Source of the DNA: Thauera humireducens
Lineage (GTDB): Bacteria; Pseudomonadota; Gammaproteobacteria; Burkholderiales; Rhodocyclaceae
Assembly (NCBI RefSeq): GCF_001051995.2
Contig: NZ_CP014646.1
Location: 2,294,001 to 2,358,000, forward strand
Length of the DNA: 64,000 bases
Direction of reading: 5' to 3'
Position 1 is the first letter of the stretch; each line of letters begins with the position of its first letter. Below, piece by piece: positions 1-34,402 of this stretch. The translations under genes were made by a program, and so were the position numbers. A model generated the notes under the pieces. The model ran no database searches and was not told where the DNA came from. It worked only from the letters and a program-made list of their open reading frames with translations.

Positions 1-3000
1 CGATACGCCGTCGATGCTGACGGCCTCGTCCATCCGGCAGCTCGCACGCCCAGCGCCACATCCTTAGCCCCCGAGTCACCAACGCCCCCGCAGACCCTTC
101 GCGACGACTTCGGCCGCATGGTCTGGCTGCACGGTCCGGACAGCGGAACCATCGTGCGCGAGTACGACGAAGCCGACCGGCTGGCCGCCATGCGCGACGC
201 GCGCGGCAACCGCGCCCACTACACCTACGACACCTGGGGGCGCATCCGCTACCAGCGAATCACCGACGCCCGCACCGGCGCCACCGAAGAAACAGAGTGG
301 CGGTATGCCGGGCGTCGTCTGGTCGAGGTCCGCCATCCCACCCAGCACGAACGCTACGAATACGACGCCCGCGGCCTGCGCAGCGCGCACATCGTCACCC
401 TGCCCACCGCCGACGGAGCGCTGACGACGATCACCCGCTACGAGCACGACGACGCCGGTCAACTCGTCGCCACGACGCTGCCCGACGGCAGCCACCTCCG
501 TTACGAACGCAATGGCCAGGGTCAGGTCATCGCGCTCAGGCGCGAATCCGCTGGGGCACCATGGCCAGGCTGGCTCGCGCGCGAGGAACTCATCGCCAGC
601 GAGTTCGAGCGCGACCTCGTCGGCCTACGCCGCTATGTGACGGGCAACGGTATCGAGACCCGCTTCCAGCGGAGCCGCGAAGGCGTGCTCGCACGCGTCG
701 TTCACCGTCATCGTCCACTGCCGCAGCACCGGGTAGCCAACCGCTTGAAGCCCTGGCCGCTCGCCCGCACGCCCGCTGAGGCAGTCGAACAGCTCTTGGG
801 TATCGGCGACGCCCGCGCCCAATCCACCGCGACTGTCACACCTGTGGCTGATATCTCCGCGGAAAGCTCTCTGGCGAATACCGGCAACCTGCCAGGCGCC
901 CTGGGAGATCCTGACGATCCGGCCGCACTGCTCGACCATCGTTACCTCTGGGACGTGCGCGGCAACCTGCTGCACGGCCGCCAGCGTGCCGTCGGCGGAA
1001 ACGCCCAGCCCACGGCAAGCGGCCACGCCTACGATCGCGACAACCGCCTGCTCGCCTCGGTCCGGTGGCGGATGAAGGACGACACCCTCGTCGAACAGGC
1101 CGTCTGGCGATACGCCTACGACCCGTCCCAACGCCGCATCCTGAGCCAGCAGAATGTCGCCTCGCAGCGCGAACTGCAGGCCGGCACCCAGCGCAGCCAT
1201 TTCGAGCCGCTAACCCACCGCGTGCTGGCTTCGCCCGACTCACCTTCACGCTACAGCACCAGCGGCCAACCCGAGCGGCTCGGGCAGCGCGACTACGAGT
1301 GGGATGCCCGCGGCCGGCTCGTTGAAGTCCGCGAGGACAGCACCGTCATCGCCCGCTACGGCTACGACCATCGCGGCCTGCGCAATACCAAGCACGCCGG
1401 CGGCCGCACAACACACACCCTCTACGACGAACACCACCAGCCCCTGGCGGAACTCGACGCGAAGGGCCGCATCCTGCGCCAATACATCTGGCTCGCCGAC
1501 CTGCCAGTTGCCGTGATCGATACCCCGGAGGGCGTCGCCGCCGCCGCAGCCGACGACAGTGCCACCGCCCGTTTCTTCAGTGATCTGCAACGACTTTGGC
1601 GCAACGCCTTCGGCTCGAACGAAGGCGTCGCCTGGCTGCACGGCAACCACCTCGGCGCCCCCGAGCTCGCCACCGACGCAGACGGCCAGGTGCTCTGGCG
1701 GGCCACCTACGCCCCCTTCGGCGCCGCCACCATCGAGTCCCGCACCCTCACCCTCAACCTGCGCCTGCCCGGCCAGTACTTCGACCCCGAAACGGGCCTG
1801 CATTACAACCGCGCGCGCTACTACGACCCGGAACAGGGCCAGTACCTCAGCCCCGACCCACTCGGCACTCCGGATGGGCCGAACCCCTACGCCTACGTCG
1901 CGCACAACCCCCTCCGGTTCATCGATCCGGACGGGCTCATCCTGTTCGCGTTCGACGGTACGGACAACTCCCGTGATCGGCGCGAACTTGAGCGCCTCGG
2001 TGGCTCCCTGACGAACGTCGCGCGGTTTGTGCGACTTTATGACGATGGTCCGCGCCGCTACGTGTCCGGCGTGGGCACGCACCATTTCGAGGATGGAAAC
2101 ACCAACTATCTGGACGATGAATATCTGGACATCCTGCCGAACGGCCTCGGGCCGATCCCTGATCGCGGCGGCAACTTCACCGGACGCGCGCGCATCGACC
2201 GCATGTGGCGCTACTTCATCGACGAGGCCGAGGGCCATCCCGATGACGAGACCATGGACATCGACATCATGGGCTTCAGCCGTGGTGCCGCACAGGCGCG
2301 GGAGTTCGCCAGCCGGCTGGCCGCGGCCAGCATCGTGCACGATGGGGTCCGCTACCTCCGGTACACGGCCATCGACAGAGCCTCGGGCCAGAACGTCACA
2401 CGCTGCCAACCGGTAAACCTGCGCTTCATGGGTTTGTTCGACACCGTCCTGAGCACCGATCTGCCTTGGGGCGCAGCCTATCGCTTGGCGATACCGGCGG
2501 AGTTTGCCCACGTGGCGCACGCCGTGGCACTCAACGAGTACCGCAGCCAGCCCTATTCGTCCGACGTGTTCGGCTACCCCTTGAATGCGGCCTTCTGGAA
2601 TGCGACCCGCCGCAACCTGCCCGACGACCTGCACCAGGGCGGCTTCCCGCTCGAATCCATTGGCGCGAGCCGCTACACCCCCGGACAGGTACGCATCGAG
2701 CGCGGCTTCATCGGCGCGCACGCCGATATCGGCGGCGGCTACGAGGAGGGTGAGAACCAGTTGTCCTTCGTGGCACTGAACTGGATGGTCGAGCAGGCGC
2801 AGAAGGCGGGGGTCAATATGCGTCCCCCAGATGCCGATAGCAGCATTCCCATGGCCAACCCCATCATCCACGACCAGAGCAACACGTTACGCATCGGCGA
2901 CCCGCGCGACACGCCGACGGTCTCACGCGAGGTTCAGCAGGGGGACATGACGTTCATCGAAACGGAGCGCCTGCGCGCCGAAGACCGCGAGGTGCGCGGC

Positions 3001-3258
3001 GCCGTCGGCGGCACTACCCAGCGCGACATGGGCTTTACCGACTTCGGTCCTGACGACCGCAGTCTGACCACGGGCGAGACGCACGACTTCATTGCCTACA
3101 CCGAGCGTCCTGTGACGGGCAATCCAAGTGATACCTGGAATGCGCTCACGGGCAACCGGACAGGGCTGGTGGACATCGCTGCATACATGGGTTGGCTGTG
3201 CCAGCACGGCTATTTCGAGCAAAGCTCGGCACCTTGCGCATCTGGAGTAACACCATGA
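1..3258 (+). CDS. Rhs-repeat protein with C-terminal DUF2235/Tle1-like lipase domain (5' partial)
   Basis: The reading frame is open from base 1, so the gene starts outside the window; the first in-window ATG (118) lies inside an Rhs/YD repeat and is not the start. YD repeats of the form YEYDARG and YEWDARGR run to about 1,700. The Rhs core follows (YFDPETGLHYNRARYYDP, then SPDPLG) and ends at DPDGL (1924-1938), the usual boundary and self-cleavage site between Rhs shell and toxin. The tail is a DUF2235 alpha/beta hydrolase: FAFDGTDNS, then nucleophile motif GFSRG (Ser codon 2278-2280), FDTV (Asp codon 2440-2442) and GAHADIGGGY (His codon 2719-2721), a complete Ser-Asp-His set. DUF2235 includes the type VI secretion phospholipases Tle1, so an antibacterial membrane-lipid toxin is the likely role. 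The stop overlaps the next start (ATGA), which couples it to a probable immunity gene. No secretion genes lie in the window, so the delivery route is inferred. Confidence 0.88.
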   Translation, partial: RYAVDADGLVHPAARTPSATSLAPESPTPPQTLRDDFGRMVWLHGPDSGTIVREYDEADRLAAMRDARGNRAHYTYDTWGRIRYQRITDARTGATEETEWRYAGRRLVEVRHPTQHERYEYDARGLRSAHIVTLPTADGALTTITRYEHDDAGQLVATTLPDGSHLRYERNGQGQVIALRRESAGAPWPGWLAREELIASEFERDLVGLRRYVTGNGIETRFQRSREGVLARVVHRHRPLPQHRVANRLKPWPLARTPAEAVEQLLGIGDARAQSTATVTPVADISAESSLANTGNLPGALGDPDDPAALLDHRYLWDVRGNLLHGRQRAVGGNAQPTASGHAYDRDNRLLASVRWRMKDDTLVEQAVWRYAYDPSQRRILSQQNVASQRELQAGTQRSHFEPLTHRVLASPDSPSRYSTSGQPERLGQRDYEWDARGRLVEVREDSTVIARYGYDHRGLRNTKHAGGRTTHTLYDEHHQPLAELDAKGRILRQYIWLADLPVAVIDTPEGVAAAAADDSATARFFSDLQRLWRNAFGSNEGVAWLHGNHLGAPELATDADGQVLWRATYAPFGAATIESRTLTLNLRLPGQYFDPETGLHYNRARYYDPEQGQYLSPDPLGTPDGPNPYAYVAHNPLRFIDPDGLILFAFDGTDNSRDRRELERLGGSLTNVARFVRLYDDGPRRYVSGVGTHHFEDGNTNYLDDEYLDILPNGLGPIPDRGGNFTGRARIDRMWRYFIDEAEGHPDDETMDIDIMGFSRGAAQAREFASRLAAASIVHDGVRYLRYTAIDRASGQNVTRCQPVNLRFMGLFDTVLSTDLPWGAAYRLAIPAEFAHVAHAVALNEYRSQPYSSDVFGYPLNAAFWNATRRNLPDDLHQGGFPLESIGASRYTPGQVRIERGFIGAHADIGGGYEEGENQLSFVALNWMVEQAQKAGVNMRPPDADSSIPMANPIIHDQSNTLRIGDPRDTPTVSREVQQGDMTFIETERLRAEDREVRGAVGGTTQRDMGFTDFGPDDRSLTTGETHDFIAYTERPVTGNPSDTWNALTGNRTGLVDIAAYMGWLCQHGYFEQSSAPCASGVTP

Positions 3259-6674: not shown

Positions 6675-6912
6675 CGCCCCGGCAAACTGGAAGGAGAAAG
6701 CGAGTTGAAGATGCCGAAACAGGAGTTCACGGCACTGGCGGTGACGCCGGCAGATGCAAGTCGAGCCACGCAGAGATCACTCGGCGACATGAGGGGAAGG
6801 CAGGCGCTGTGAAACGAAGCACGATGCCCGGAATCGACAGCGAATCGATACCCGCCGAGATCAGCTACAAGCCAGAAATTCGATGTGCTTTACGGTTGTT
6901 GACGTACCCGAC
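6675..6912. other. Intergenic stretch between the Rhs-associated genes and ssrA
   Basis: I see no convincing gene here. AAGGAG at 6691-6696 precedes a possible 33-codon reading frame (ATG 6711 to TGA 6812, with a TTG at 6705 better spaced). Its product has no recognisable feature and may be chance. Beyond it the sequence carries no clear promoter or terminator. Confidence 0.3.
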
Positions 6913-6914
6913 GA

Positions 6915-7215
6915 ACGCGGGCCGTAGACGTGACGATGGGGACCGAAGTCCCCACCGGCTTTTCTTTGGTAACAAGGCTCAAGCAGCCTCGGCATAGGCC
7001 TTAAGCGGCCAGTGCGAAACGCTCATCGTTGGCGTTTGTGGTTTTGCGCGGATTACGTCCGTCGCCTCTCGGGTTGCCTGCTCACCTTTGCCCGCCCTGT
7101 CGAAACCAGTACACCCCCACCCAAACGCACTCCCGAATGCCCTTGGGTGGAGGTGAGGGGAATCGAACCCCTGTCCAGAACGCCTCCAGATTGCCGGGAT
7201 TACAACCATGGGCGC
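6915..7215 (-). ncRNA. ssrA: Permuted two-piece tmRNA (betaproteobacterial type)
   Basis: Reading the minus strand, the acceptor half comes first: a T-arm with stem AGGGG/CCCCT and loop TTCGATT, then acceptor 3' strand CACCTCC plus discriminator A at 7148. A 29-nt spacer that can fold into a hairpin follows. The coding half starts at 7118 with acceptor 5' strand GGGGGTG and then TACTGGTTTCGACAGGG. The strands pair as seven base pairs including G3-U, the alanine identity pair. The tag frame GCC...TAA occupies 7033-7001 and encodes ANDERFALAA. A GGGGAC-TTCG-GTCCCC hairpin (6915-6935 region) probably closes the coding half. The order T-arm before tag is the reverse of a normal tmRNA, so processing must remove the spacer and leave two RNAs. 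The CCA end is not encoded as such (the gene reads ACCCA). Outer ends are approximate; the 5' end of the acceptor half could not be fixed. Confidence 0.93.
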
Positions 7216-7219
7216 CATG

Positions 7220-7280
7220 TTACGCACTGACGGGCCGGCATTCAATGCCTTGGGGCACCGAGCCGGCCATTCAGTTGTAA
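7220..7280 (-). other. Long multi-segment stem-loop between the AhpD-like gene and ssrA
   Basis: Five paired blocks are nested: TTAC/GTAA, ACTGA/TCAGT, GGCCGGC/GCCGGCC and AATGCC/GGCACC (with G-U pairs in the RNA), closing on a four-base loop. It lies 26 bases past the stop of the upstream minus-strand gene and just before the acceptor half of ssrA. No U-tract follows. It may be a terminator-like or processing hairpin, or part of the tmRNA precursor leader. Confidence 0.55.
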
Positions 7281-7305: not shown

Positions 7306-7884
7306 TTAGCGCTTGGGCACGCGGCCCATCAGGTAGAAAGGCTCGTTGGGCGGCGTGCCGGTGAGGTGCACGAGACGGTTGCTCATTGCGAAGAAGGCGG
7401 TGATGGCGCCGATGTCCCAGATGGCCTCGTCGTCGAAGCCGTGTTCGCGCAGCGCGGCGAGATCCCCGTCCTCGATCTCGCCACCGCGCGTGGAGAGCTT
7501 GACGGCGAAGTCGAGCATGGCGCGCTGGCGCGGGGTGATCTCGGCCTTGCGGTAGTTGGTGGCGAGTTGGTCGGCGATGCGCGGGTTCTTGGCGCGGATG
7601 CGCAGCACTGCGCCGTGGGCGATGACGCAGTAGAGGCATTGGCTGGCGGCCGATGTGGCAACGACGATCATCTCGCGCTCGGCCTTGGTGAGGCCGACGT
7701 CCTTCTCCATCAGGGCGTCGTGGTAGTCGAAGAAGGCACGGAACTCCGCCGGCCGGTGAGCCAGCATCAGGAACACATTGGGCACGAATCCGGCCTTTTC
7801 CTGCACGGCGAGGATGCGGCTGCGAACGTCCTCGGGCACGTCGGCGAGGTCGGGAATGGCGAAGCGGCTGATACGGTCGGTCAT
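7306..7884 (-). CDS. AhpD-like / carboxymuconolactone decarboxylase family, peroxidase-related protein
   Basis: This encodes 192 aa; the start at 7884 is preceded by GAGGAG, and the longer frame to 7938 has no support. The motif QCLYCVIAHG carries the CxxC plus histidine of the AhpD fold, in which the cysteine pair reduces a partner peroxidase or its lipoyl or disulfide carrier. The N-terminal VPNVFLMLAHRP and later LDFAVKLSTR are typical of the peroxidase-related (uncharacterised peroxidase) branch. It is probably a cytoplasmic thiol-dependent antioxidant protein; the exact substrate is unknown. It lies just downstream of acuI on the same strand with 68 bases between, so the two could share a transcript. 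Confidence 0.85.
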   Translation of the reverse strand: MTDRISRFAIPDLADVPEDVRSRILAVQEKAGFVPNVFLMLAHRPAEFRAFFDYHDALMEKDVGLTKAEREMIVVATSAASQCLYCVIAHGAVLRIRAKNPRIADQLATNYRKAEITPRQRAMLDFAVKLSTRGGEIEDGDLAALREHGFDDEAIWDIGAITAFFAMSNRLVHLTGTPPNEPFYLMGRVPKR

Positions 7885-7952
7885 GTGAAACGTCTCCTCA
7901 GTGATGTCGATATGCGGCGGCGGGCAGCATGCCGCCACGGAACTGAACTGCG

Positions 7953-33331: not shown

Positions 33332-33429
33332 CGATGCGGAGAACGGGCAGTAATGCAATCCTATACGGCGTGCGCACCGAAATCTTGAGCACCTTGCCAC
33401 ACACGAGGGCATACAGTATCGTCCGCAGT

Positions 33430-33511
33430 TCTCGTTGGGGGTGCCCGCTGCGCACGGGCTGAGAAACACCCTTGGAACCTGATCCGGCTCGCACCGGCGT
33501 AGGGAAACGTC
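33430..33511 (+). promoter_or_regulatory. TPP riboswitch (THI element)
   Basis: The conserved GGGGGTGCCC, CTGAGAAACACCC (33459 on), GGAACCTGATCCGG and GCGTAGGGAAACGTC blocks appear in order. The last block contains the Shine-Dalgarno AGGGA, nine bases before the thiD start, so TPP binding probably blocks translation of thiD and hence thiC. Confidence 0.96.
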
Positions 33512-33514
33512 AAT

Positions 33515-34402
33515 ATGCGTTCGTCCGCTTCATCCGCCGCTGCAACCAGCAGCGCGTCCCGTATTTCCAATGTGGTCTCGATCGCCGGCGTGGACCCGAG
33601 TGGGGGCGCCGGCGTGCTTGCCGACCTCAAGGCCTTCTCGGCGCTCGGCGCCTATGGCTGCGGCGTCATCGCTGCGCTGACGGCACAGAACACCCAGTGC
33701 GTGACCGGCGTGCATGTACCGCCGACCGACTTCCTGCGCCTGCAGATCGACACCCTGTTCGCCGACGTCGCGATCCACGCGACCAAGATCGGCATGCTCG
33801 GCAGCGCCGAGGTCACCGCCACCGTGGCCGACCGCCTTGCCCACTGGCAGGCCGCCAACGTCGTGCTCGACCCGGTCATGGTCGCCAAGAGTGGCGACAG
33901 CCTGCTGGCCAGGAGCGCGATCGCGATGATGCGCGAGGCGCTGTTCCCGCAAGCCTTCCTGATCACCCCCAACCTGCCCGAGGCGGGCGTGCTGCTCGAA
34001 CAGCGTGCGCCGGAAACGGTCAAGGAGATGTACCGCGCCGCCGAGCGCCTGCGCGAACTGCTGCCAGTCTCGAGCGAGCGCTGGGTGCTGCTCAAGGGCG
34101 GCCACCTGCCCGGCAACGACCTCGTCGACCTGCTGTTCGACGGTGACCGCATGGTCGAACTGCCCGCGCCGCGCATCGAGACCAAGAACACGCACGGCAC
34201 CGGCTGCAGCCTCTCGTCCGCCATCGCCGCCCTGCTGCCGCAGCGGGCAGGCGGATTCAGGCCGGTGGAGTCGGCCGTGCGCGAGGCACGCCAGTGGCTG
34301 CTGGGCGCCATCGCACATTCGGGCGAGCTCGGCGTCGGCAGCGGACATGGTCCGGTCCATCACTTCCACGCACTCTGGCGCAGGAACGCAGTTCCGCACT
34401 GA
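33515..34402 (+). CDS. thiD: Hydroxymethylpyrimidine/phosphomethylpyrimidine kinase
   Basis: This encodes 295 aa. After a 17-residue Ser/Ala-rich extension the ribokinase fold starts: VVSIAGVDPSGGAGVLADLKAF, KIGMLGSAE, LDPVMVAKSGD, LITPNLPEAGVLL, GGHLPG and the ATP/anion-hole motif THGTGCSLSSAIA. It phosphorylates HMP and HMP-P in thiamine synthesis. The TPP riboswitch precedes it and thiC follows after 103 bases, so both are likely under the same control. Confidence 0.97.
   Translation: MRSSASSAAATSSASRISNVVSIAGVDPSGGAGVLADLKAFSALGAYGCGVIAALTAQNTQCVTGVHVPPTDFLRLQIDTLFADVAIHATKIGMLGSAEVTATVADRLAHWQAANVVLDPVMVAKSGDSLLARSAIAMMREALFPQAFLITPNLPEAGVLLEQRAPETVKEMYRAAERLRELLPVSSERWVLLKGGHLPGNDLVDLLFDGDRMVELPAPRIETKNTHGTGCSLSSAIAALLPQRAGGFRPVESAVREARQWLLGAIAHSGELGVGSGHGPVHHFHALWRRNAVPH

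Follow-up and report, generated by a model that had tools for sequence, protein, structure and literature searches.

The window, the whole 64,000-nucleotide stretch of Thauera humireducens DNA that was analyzed, carries on its minus strand a permuted tmRNA (ssrA) gene that extends over 6931..7258 in the Rfam model. tmRNA is the RNA that frees stuck ribosomes. When the window sequence was read along the minus strand, the order of the parts was T-arm, acceptor 3' strand, discriminator, spacer, acceptor 5' strand and tag frame, which agrees with the claim of an earlier note, made from the letters alone, that the T-arm/acceptor half is encoded before the tag half. ARAGORN reported a permuted tmRNA at 6910-7237 with the tag ANDERFALAA. 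The cmscan search gave 309.1 bits for RF01850 (beta_tmRNA; E 8.9e-100, gathering score 84, 7258-6931 on the minus strand, model positions 1-331 of 331) and 172.6 bits for RF04321 (tmRNA_permuted; 7207-7001, minus strand), and these scores exclude a chance match. The standard model, RF00023, reached 34.3 and 7.5 bits at the locus against a cut-off of 47. Thus, the check with covariance models that the note had suggested came out in favor of the beta type. The range it had given, 6915-7215, covers the locus but overshoots the gene slightly downstream and misses upstream bases included in the Rfam model, and its warning that such a locus could be missed did not hold, as ARAGORN and Rfam detected the permuted gene at once.

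Parts of the gene and its neighborhood

All parts lie on the minus strand and were assigned from the sequence and the Rfam alignment. The acceptor piece (7148..7207, with predicted mature ends; RF04321 starts at 7207) consists of the 3' half of the tRNA-like domain with the T-arm (7156..7172; a 5 bp stem and the loop UUCGAUU), the acceptor 3' strand CACCUCC (7149..7155) and the discriminator A7148. The coding piece (6935..7118, mature ends likewise predicted) runs from the acceptor 5' strand GGGGGUG (7112..7118) through the tag reading frame with its stop (7001..7033) to a final stem-loop (6935..6956; 9 bp stem, UUCG loop, no T run after it), which was not listed in a terminator scan. All seven pairs of the acceptor stem form, and the third, G7116-U7151, is a G3-U, the alanine identity pair. 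The tag frame, GCC7033...UAA7001, was found in the sequence and by ARAGORN; it encodes ANDERFALAA and ends in a hydrophobic degradation signal. Both the seven-pair acceptor stem with its G3-U and the tag at 7033-7001 had been described correctly in the note. The discriminator is followed by CCC (ACCC), so CCA is not encoded in the window gene; it is encoded in the permuted genes of some relatives, e.g. G001.

Upstream of the gene, the promoter-like hexamers TTGAAT (7245-7240) and TAACAT (7222-7217), separated by 17 bases (7217..7245), were recognized by eye, as were similar hexamers in relatives. They match the consensus at 8 of 12 positions, and a promoter scan with a threshold of 9 gave nothing at these sites. 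The nearest upstream gene (7306..7938, minus strand; PF02627, 50.5 bits), of the carboxymuconolactone decarboxylase family, is given as context only. When ten neighboring proteins were scanned with profiles, six matched ordinary families (carboxymuconolactone decarboxylase, zinc-binding dehydrogenase, nitronate monooxygenase, glyoxalase, molybdopterin-binding and Ffh), three had no match, and one was an RHS-repeat protein with a Tle1-like phospholipase domain (PF09994, 77 bits; 118-3258, plus strand, ~3.7 kb from the tmRNA). None of the ten belongs to an integrase or virion family, so these neighbors give no sign that the window gene is borne by a phage or island. A TPP riboswitch (RF00059, 70.7 bits) lies at 33427-33522 (plus strand) of the window.

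The genome (a single contig of 4,171,754 bases, 100% complete) contains exactly one gene above the beta_tmRNA cut-off. A one-piece tmRNA elsewhere, which the note had named beforehand as the finding that would speak against it, was searched for with RF00023 across the complete genome and not found: there was no match at the cut-off of 47, the best one scored 36.4 bits, and most matches were of tRNA length. Thus, the permuted ssrA of the window is the only tmRNA found in the genome. It shares its gene order, tRNA-like domain, tag and final stem-loop with RF01850 and RF04321, and nothing in it is different in kind. The locus alone is one more member of a curated RNA family; its setting matters more.

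The spacer hairpin and the proposed processing

The segment 7155-7112 folds into a single long hairpin (-32.5 kcal/mol), and the same was seen in most relatives, whereas the printed structure of Rfam beta_tmRNA leaves the spacer stretch (7119..7147, minus strand) unpaired. To examine covariation, we tried 66 permuted sequences, of which 64 were kept (two plasmid copies failed the motif search); a further two did not match the acceptor motif, which left 62 sequences with 46 distinct segments, 43 of which were used. The first 11 spacer pairs were standard in 91.3% of cases, while 1000 partner shuffles averaged 77.1% and never exceeded 83.9%. Cells changed on both sides numbered 66; the shuffles had 17.4 on average and at most 41. 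These figures are to be read with the caveat that kinship alone can lift related sequences above partner shuffles without structure. Entire paired blocks also differ between spacers (CCCAAG, CCUAAG and CCAGAAG), each with a fitting partner. Judged from these sequence comparisons, the spacer is a helix that extends the acceptor stem and is maintained by paired changes. Three of the 46 distinct segments (G070, G175 and G064) have a spacer of only 8 nt and no spacer helix. The 8-nt spacers of g43 and g37 (L174, L175 and L177) include an encoded CCA, and the hairpin is absent there.

We propose that one precursor is transcribed from the promoter just upstream of ssrA, and that its acceptor halves pair, with the intervening spacer folded into a hairpin that stacks on the acceptor stem. 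An RNase P cut before G7118 and a 3' nuclease acting after A7148 would then excise the spacer, and the hairpin may in addition be opened by a nuclease specific for double strands. The hairpin would thus provide a concrete substrate for the precursor-cutting step in the betaproteobacterial permuted lineage. Since CCA is not encoded after the discriminator, it would have to be added post-transcriptionally. The acceptor RNA and the coding RNA would remain paired and accept alanine, and, together with SmpB, the two-piece tmRNA would tag stalled proteins with ANDERFALAA. The cleavage sites, the two RNA pieces and the function are predicted here by homology; in the available text of PMC11915505 and PMC3985003, permuted tmRNA precursors are cleaved into two pieces that stay paired. 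A precursor that is left uncut and works as a single unbroken RNA, spacer hairpin included, appears very unlikely: a helix as stable as that of most relatives would tolerate retention of the spacer, but charging needs a free 3' end at the discriminator, and cleavage into two pieces is what those sources describe for permuted tmRNAs. We are highly confident that the window holds the sole ssrA of the genome, that it is of the permuted betaproteobacterial type, and that it is processed as proposed. This judgement leaves the history of the gene aside; the gene order, helices, tag, single copy and spacer covariation were observed, and the cuts, pieces and function are predicted.

Permuted and one-piece genes among related genomes

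In the following, P denotes the permuted and S the one-piece tmRNA, and Thauera is g1. Among 29 Thauera genomes, 27 exceeded the beta_tmRNA cut-off (G026 with a part cut by the contig end), G017 had a standard tmRNA (RF00023, 198.7 bits), and neither form was found in G027, which is 81% complete. S has the same function by homology and is present in the same genus, but it differs from P in its unpermuted order and, as shown below, in its address, and it was not found in the genome of the window. Across 395 genomes drawn from the family, 163 were above the permuted and 193 above the standard cut-off; by our comparison of the two result tables, only G064 and G175 exceeded both and 41 exceeded neither. 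Both forms were found within 12 of the 68 sampled genera (g1, g7, g42, g45, g52, g54, g56, g69, g76, g83, g86 and g91), of which g7 is included because of a single weaker P match, in the fragmented assembly of G231 (5% contamination). The note had fitted the locus to a betaproteobacterial lineage, and RF01850 supports the betaproteobacterial type; a single clean lineage was not seen, as P and S alternate inside genera. When 60 loci were tried with ARAGORN, the expected form was reported at all of them; the tags of G009 and G242 were odd, and G014 and G225 each had an additional, spurious call.

Contaminated or misbinned assemblies could in principle produce such mixtures, and several of the mixed cases are indeed fragmented assemblies. 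The S gene of G175, considered as that of a transitional double carrier, was rejected: it lies on a 3.5 kb contig with 19.8% GC, has the tag DNEYNYEY and is clearly foreign. We nevertheless give hardly any credence to artefact as the source of the mixture within genera, because single-contig genomes disagree within g86 (P in G162, G323, G375, G402 and G417; S in G196 and G268) and within g69 (P in G187; S in G096, G294 and G340), which excludes misbinning there, and because the S contig of G017 is collinear with Thauera. It is doubtful that G064 carries both forms. Its S gene adjoins the sole ubiG found there. In tetranucleotide composition, the S contig correlates with the P contig at 0.59 and with the rpoB contig at 0.67; the P and rpoB contigs correlate at only 0.69, and all three are short.

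A tree of the shared part of 32 P and 27 S genes separated P from S by a branch of ~1.0 substitutions per site (bootstrap 100). On this sequence evidence, P and S are two separate gene lineages, and it follows that the form would not have changed in place in the sampled genera; rather, one lineage took over from the other. An on-the-spot change of form was thus rejected for these genera. A repeated origin of P from S within each mixed genus, through a tandem duplication whose outer halves were then lost, has in its favor that this route is proposed for permuted tmRNA in general in the part of PMC3978253 accessible to us, and that P of G072 occupies the exact site of S in G132, with the upstream side collinear to within ~100 bp of the gene. 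It is scarcely credible in view of the tree, where 32 of 32 P genes stand on one side of the long branch and none groups with the S genes of its genus.

The species background was examined with an rpoB tree (FastTree), for which 52 of 60 genomes had a match and 51 were used, the split rpoB of G028 being omitted. In this Thauera genome, the match to the rpoB family is divided over L208 and L209, perhaps by a frameshift or an assembly error. G017, with its S gene, is nested among permuted Thauera, beside G001. That S gene is closest to those of g69 and g91 (91-93% identity), both of which adjoin Thauera in the rpoB tree, and its sequence fits retention or a short-range transfer. P and S distances tracked rpoB about equally (rho 0.375 and 0.407), and a greater mobility of P than of S was not seen from this comparison. 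Parsimony gave 15 changes of form among the 51 genomes, where shuffling gave 17.1 on average; this count is no rate, since the genomes were chosen to cover mixed genera. A single Thauera P clade was not rejected by the AU test (p-AU 0.44). The 26 Thauera P genes examined have four different upstream contexts (19, 5, 1 and 1 genes), which would suggest several P gains within the genus, but this AU result does not bear such gains out.

The two forms were also found at different addresses; ubiG, tonB-like and similar names come from our reading of translations. The ubiG gene lies directly upstream of S in 19 of 27 S loci, and five of the other eight belong to g86, where S has an address of its own near a tonB-like gene. 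P was beside ubiG in three of 32 loci, in the S orientation in G072 and G036 and reversed in G129; it is also beside ubiG, reversed, in G134, which is outside the 32-locus comparison. In g86, P is at the tonB side in the orientation opposite to S. Other P loci lie, by eye, among ordinary genes. A search for S near ubiG in 30 permuted genomes gave no match in 28 (27 over 1.5 kb downstream, and G138 over ~0.5 kb to the contig end), a result that says little for three members of g86, where the S address differs; of the remaining two, G134 has P at ubiG and G064 has the doubtful S. Three permuted Thauera (G014, G003 and G001) are collinear with G017 on both sides of its S site, with 42, 32 and 249 bp in place of the ~565 bp that hold S in G017, and no trace of S was found at this site in any of the three. 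At the P site of G001, no insertion scar was readable; relatives without P match the upstream side only.

Phage and plasmid copies and the history of the gene

An exact P-type pattern was found in four IMG/VR contigs, three of which have full permuted genes (269-298 bits), while the fourth gene is cut by the contig end. These copies are of the betaproteobacterial type (RF01850). Two further viral patterns were searched; one gave three of the same IMG/VR contigs and the other none. In INPHARED, 25 records matched, none of which covers 80% of the query. Profiles on the IMG/VR contigs that were scanned showed a large terminase in two, a portal in one, a primase in two and a ParB-like methylase in one. 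The remaining contigs have similar genes by eye and align with the profiled ones. The four are related phage contigs, and in all of them the tmRNA lies tail to tail with the 3' end of the ParB-like methylase gene. The three full phage tmRNAs group separately, with G251 (bootstrap 98), G036 (100) and G138 (97), and a single group of the three was rejected (p-AU 2.8e-5, for a grouping tested after the tree had been seen). When the phage and chromosome stretches were compared by blastn, the homology was confined to the gene itself, with identities of 94.8% over 348 bp (G036), 94.3% over 297 bp (G251) and 89.0% over 308 bp (G138); a phage copy and the window's own gene were 92.5% identical over 280 bp. 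Six plasmid records match as well, and three were examined: those of Cupriavidus sp. USMAHM13 (231.7 bits), of Cupriavidus sp. KK10 (284.1 bits; with 1.67 Mb, this record is possibly a second chromosome) and of Pandoraea oxalativorans (131.6 bits). The Pandoraea oxalativorans plasmid tmRNA (L323, 9968-10302, plus strand) was called with an unusual tag, GKNDAFYYEAA, and lies next to a trfA/parAB region. A piece of a group II intron (RF02003, 55.5 bits; L324, 6670-6790, plus strand) was found ~1.2 kb from the KK10 permuted tmRNA.

We consider it fairly probable that P was not made from the local S but belongs to a lineage of its own, which travels among chromosomes, plasmids and phages as a unit of gene size, and that the carriers of P lose the resident S. 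In favor of this history are the deep split between P and S, the mixed genera, the contrast in ubiG address, the traceless absence of S, and the phage and plasmid homology that is confined to the gene; against it are the equal tracking of rpoB, the Thauera clade that was not rejected, and the rarity of phage carriers (four IMG/VR contigs by the exact pattern). An old coexistence, with both forms in the family ancestor followed by differential loss and no recent transfer, appears unlikely, though it deserves attention. The deep split and the similar tracking of rpoB distances by both forms are compatible with it, and G064 may carry both. However, only G064 and G175 of 395 genomes exceeded both cut-offs, one with a doubtful and the other with a clearly foreign contig; P has many addresses; and the phage copies, which occupy one site in related phages, group with P of three genera, for which loss alone is insufficient. 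Judged from the sequences, exchange of a gene-sized unit, with phages and plasmids as putative vehicles and loss of S where P settles, is likely the simplest account. Even chances would be our estimate for the more specific reading that the betaproteobacterial permuted tmRNA is a mobile gene of ~300 bp, spread by phages and plasmids, with alleles swapped between phage and chromosome and S repeatedly displaced within genera. Such a swap could be eased by the P unit bringing its own start, end structure and self-folding spacer.

The kind of gene is already known: the betaproteobacterial permuted tmRNA, phage-borne ssrA and extra plasmid alleles are all described in the available text of PMC11915505, PMC9004378 and PMC4131195. 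The marine phage Melnitz likewise carries a permuted tmRNA, but of the alphaproteobacterial type, and its authors place this two-piece tmRNA gene nearest to SAR11 genes (PMC9004378, as far as its text was available); the phage copies of the present analysis belong to the betaproteobacterial type, and the copy in the window lies on the chromosome. What is unexpected is the alternation of P and S between related species together with the close phage copies. In the literature covered, which included few subscription papers, we found no account of P/S replacement within a genus, and none of betaproteobacterial-type copies in phages. If a near-universal rescue RNA is indeed exchanged for a differently built one inside genera, with phages as carriers of the new form, the old question of why two-piece tmRNAs originate and are kept opens to experiment.

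In G251, whose P copy is one of the chromosomal relatives of the phage copies, an integrase-bearing stretch starts at a tRNA-Val gene, and the P copy lies ~1.8 kb beyond the capsid-like gene of this stretch (24.8 bits, with a cut-off of 24.2). No direct repeat bounding an island around the G251 copy was found. The stretch near this tmRNA, L173 95-8064, with an integrase, Toprim, DUF3987 and the capsid-like gene after the tRNA-Val, is probably a small integrated element.
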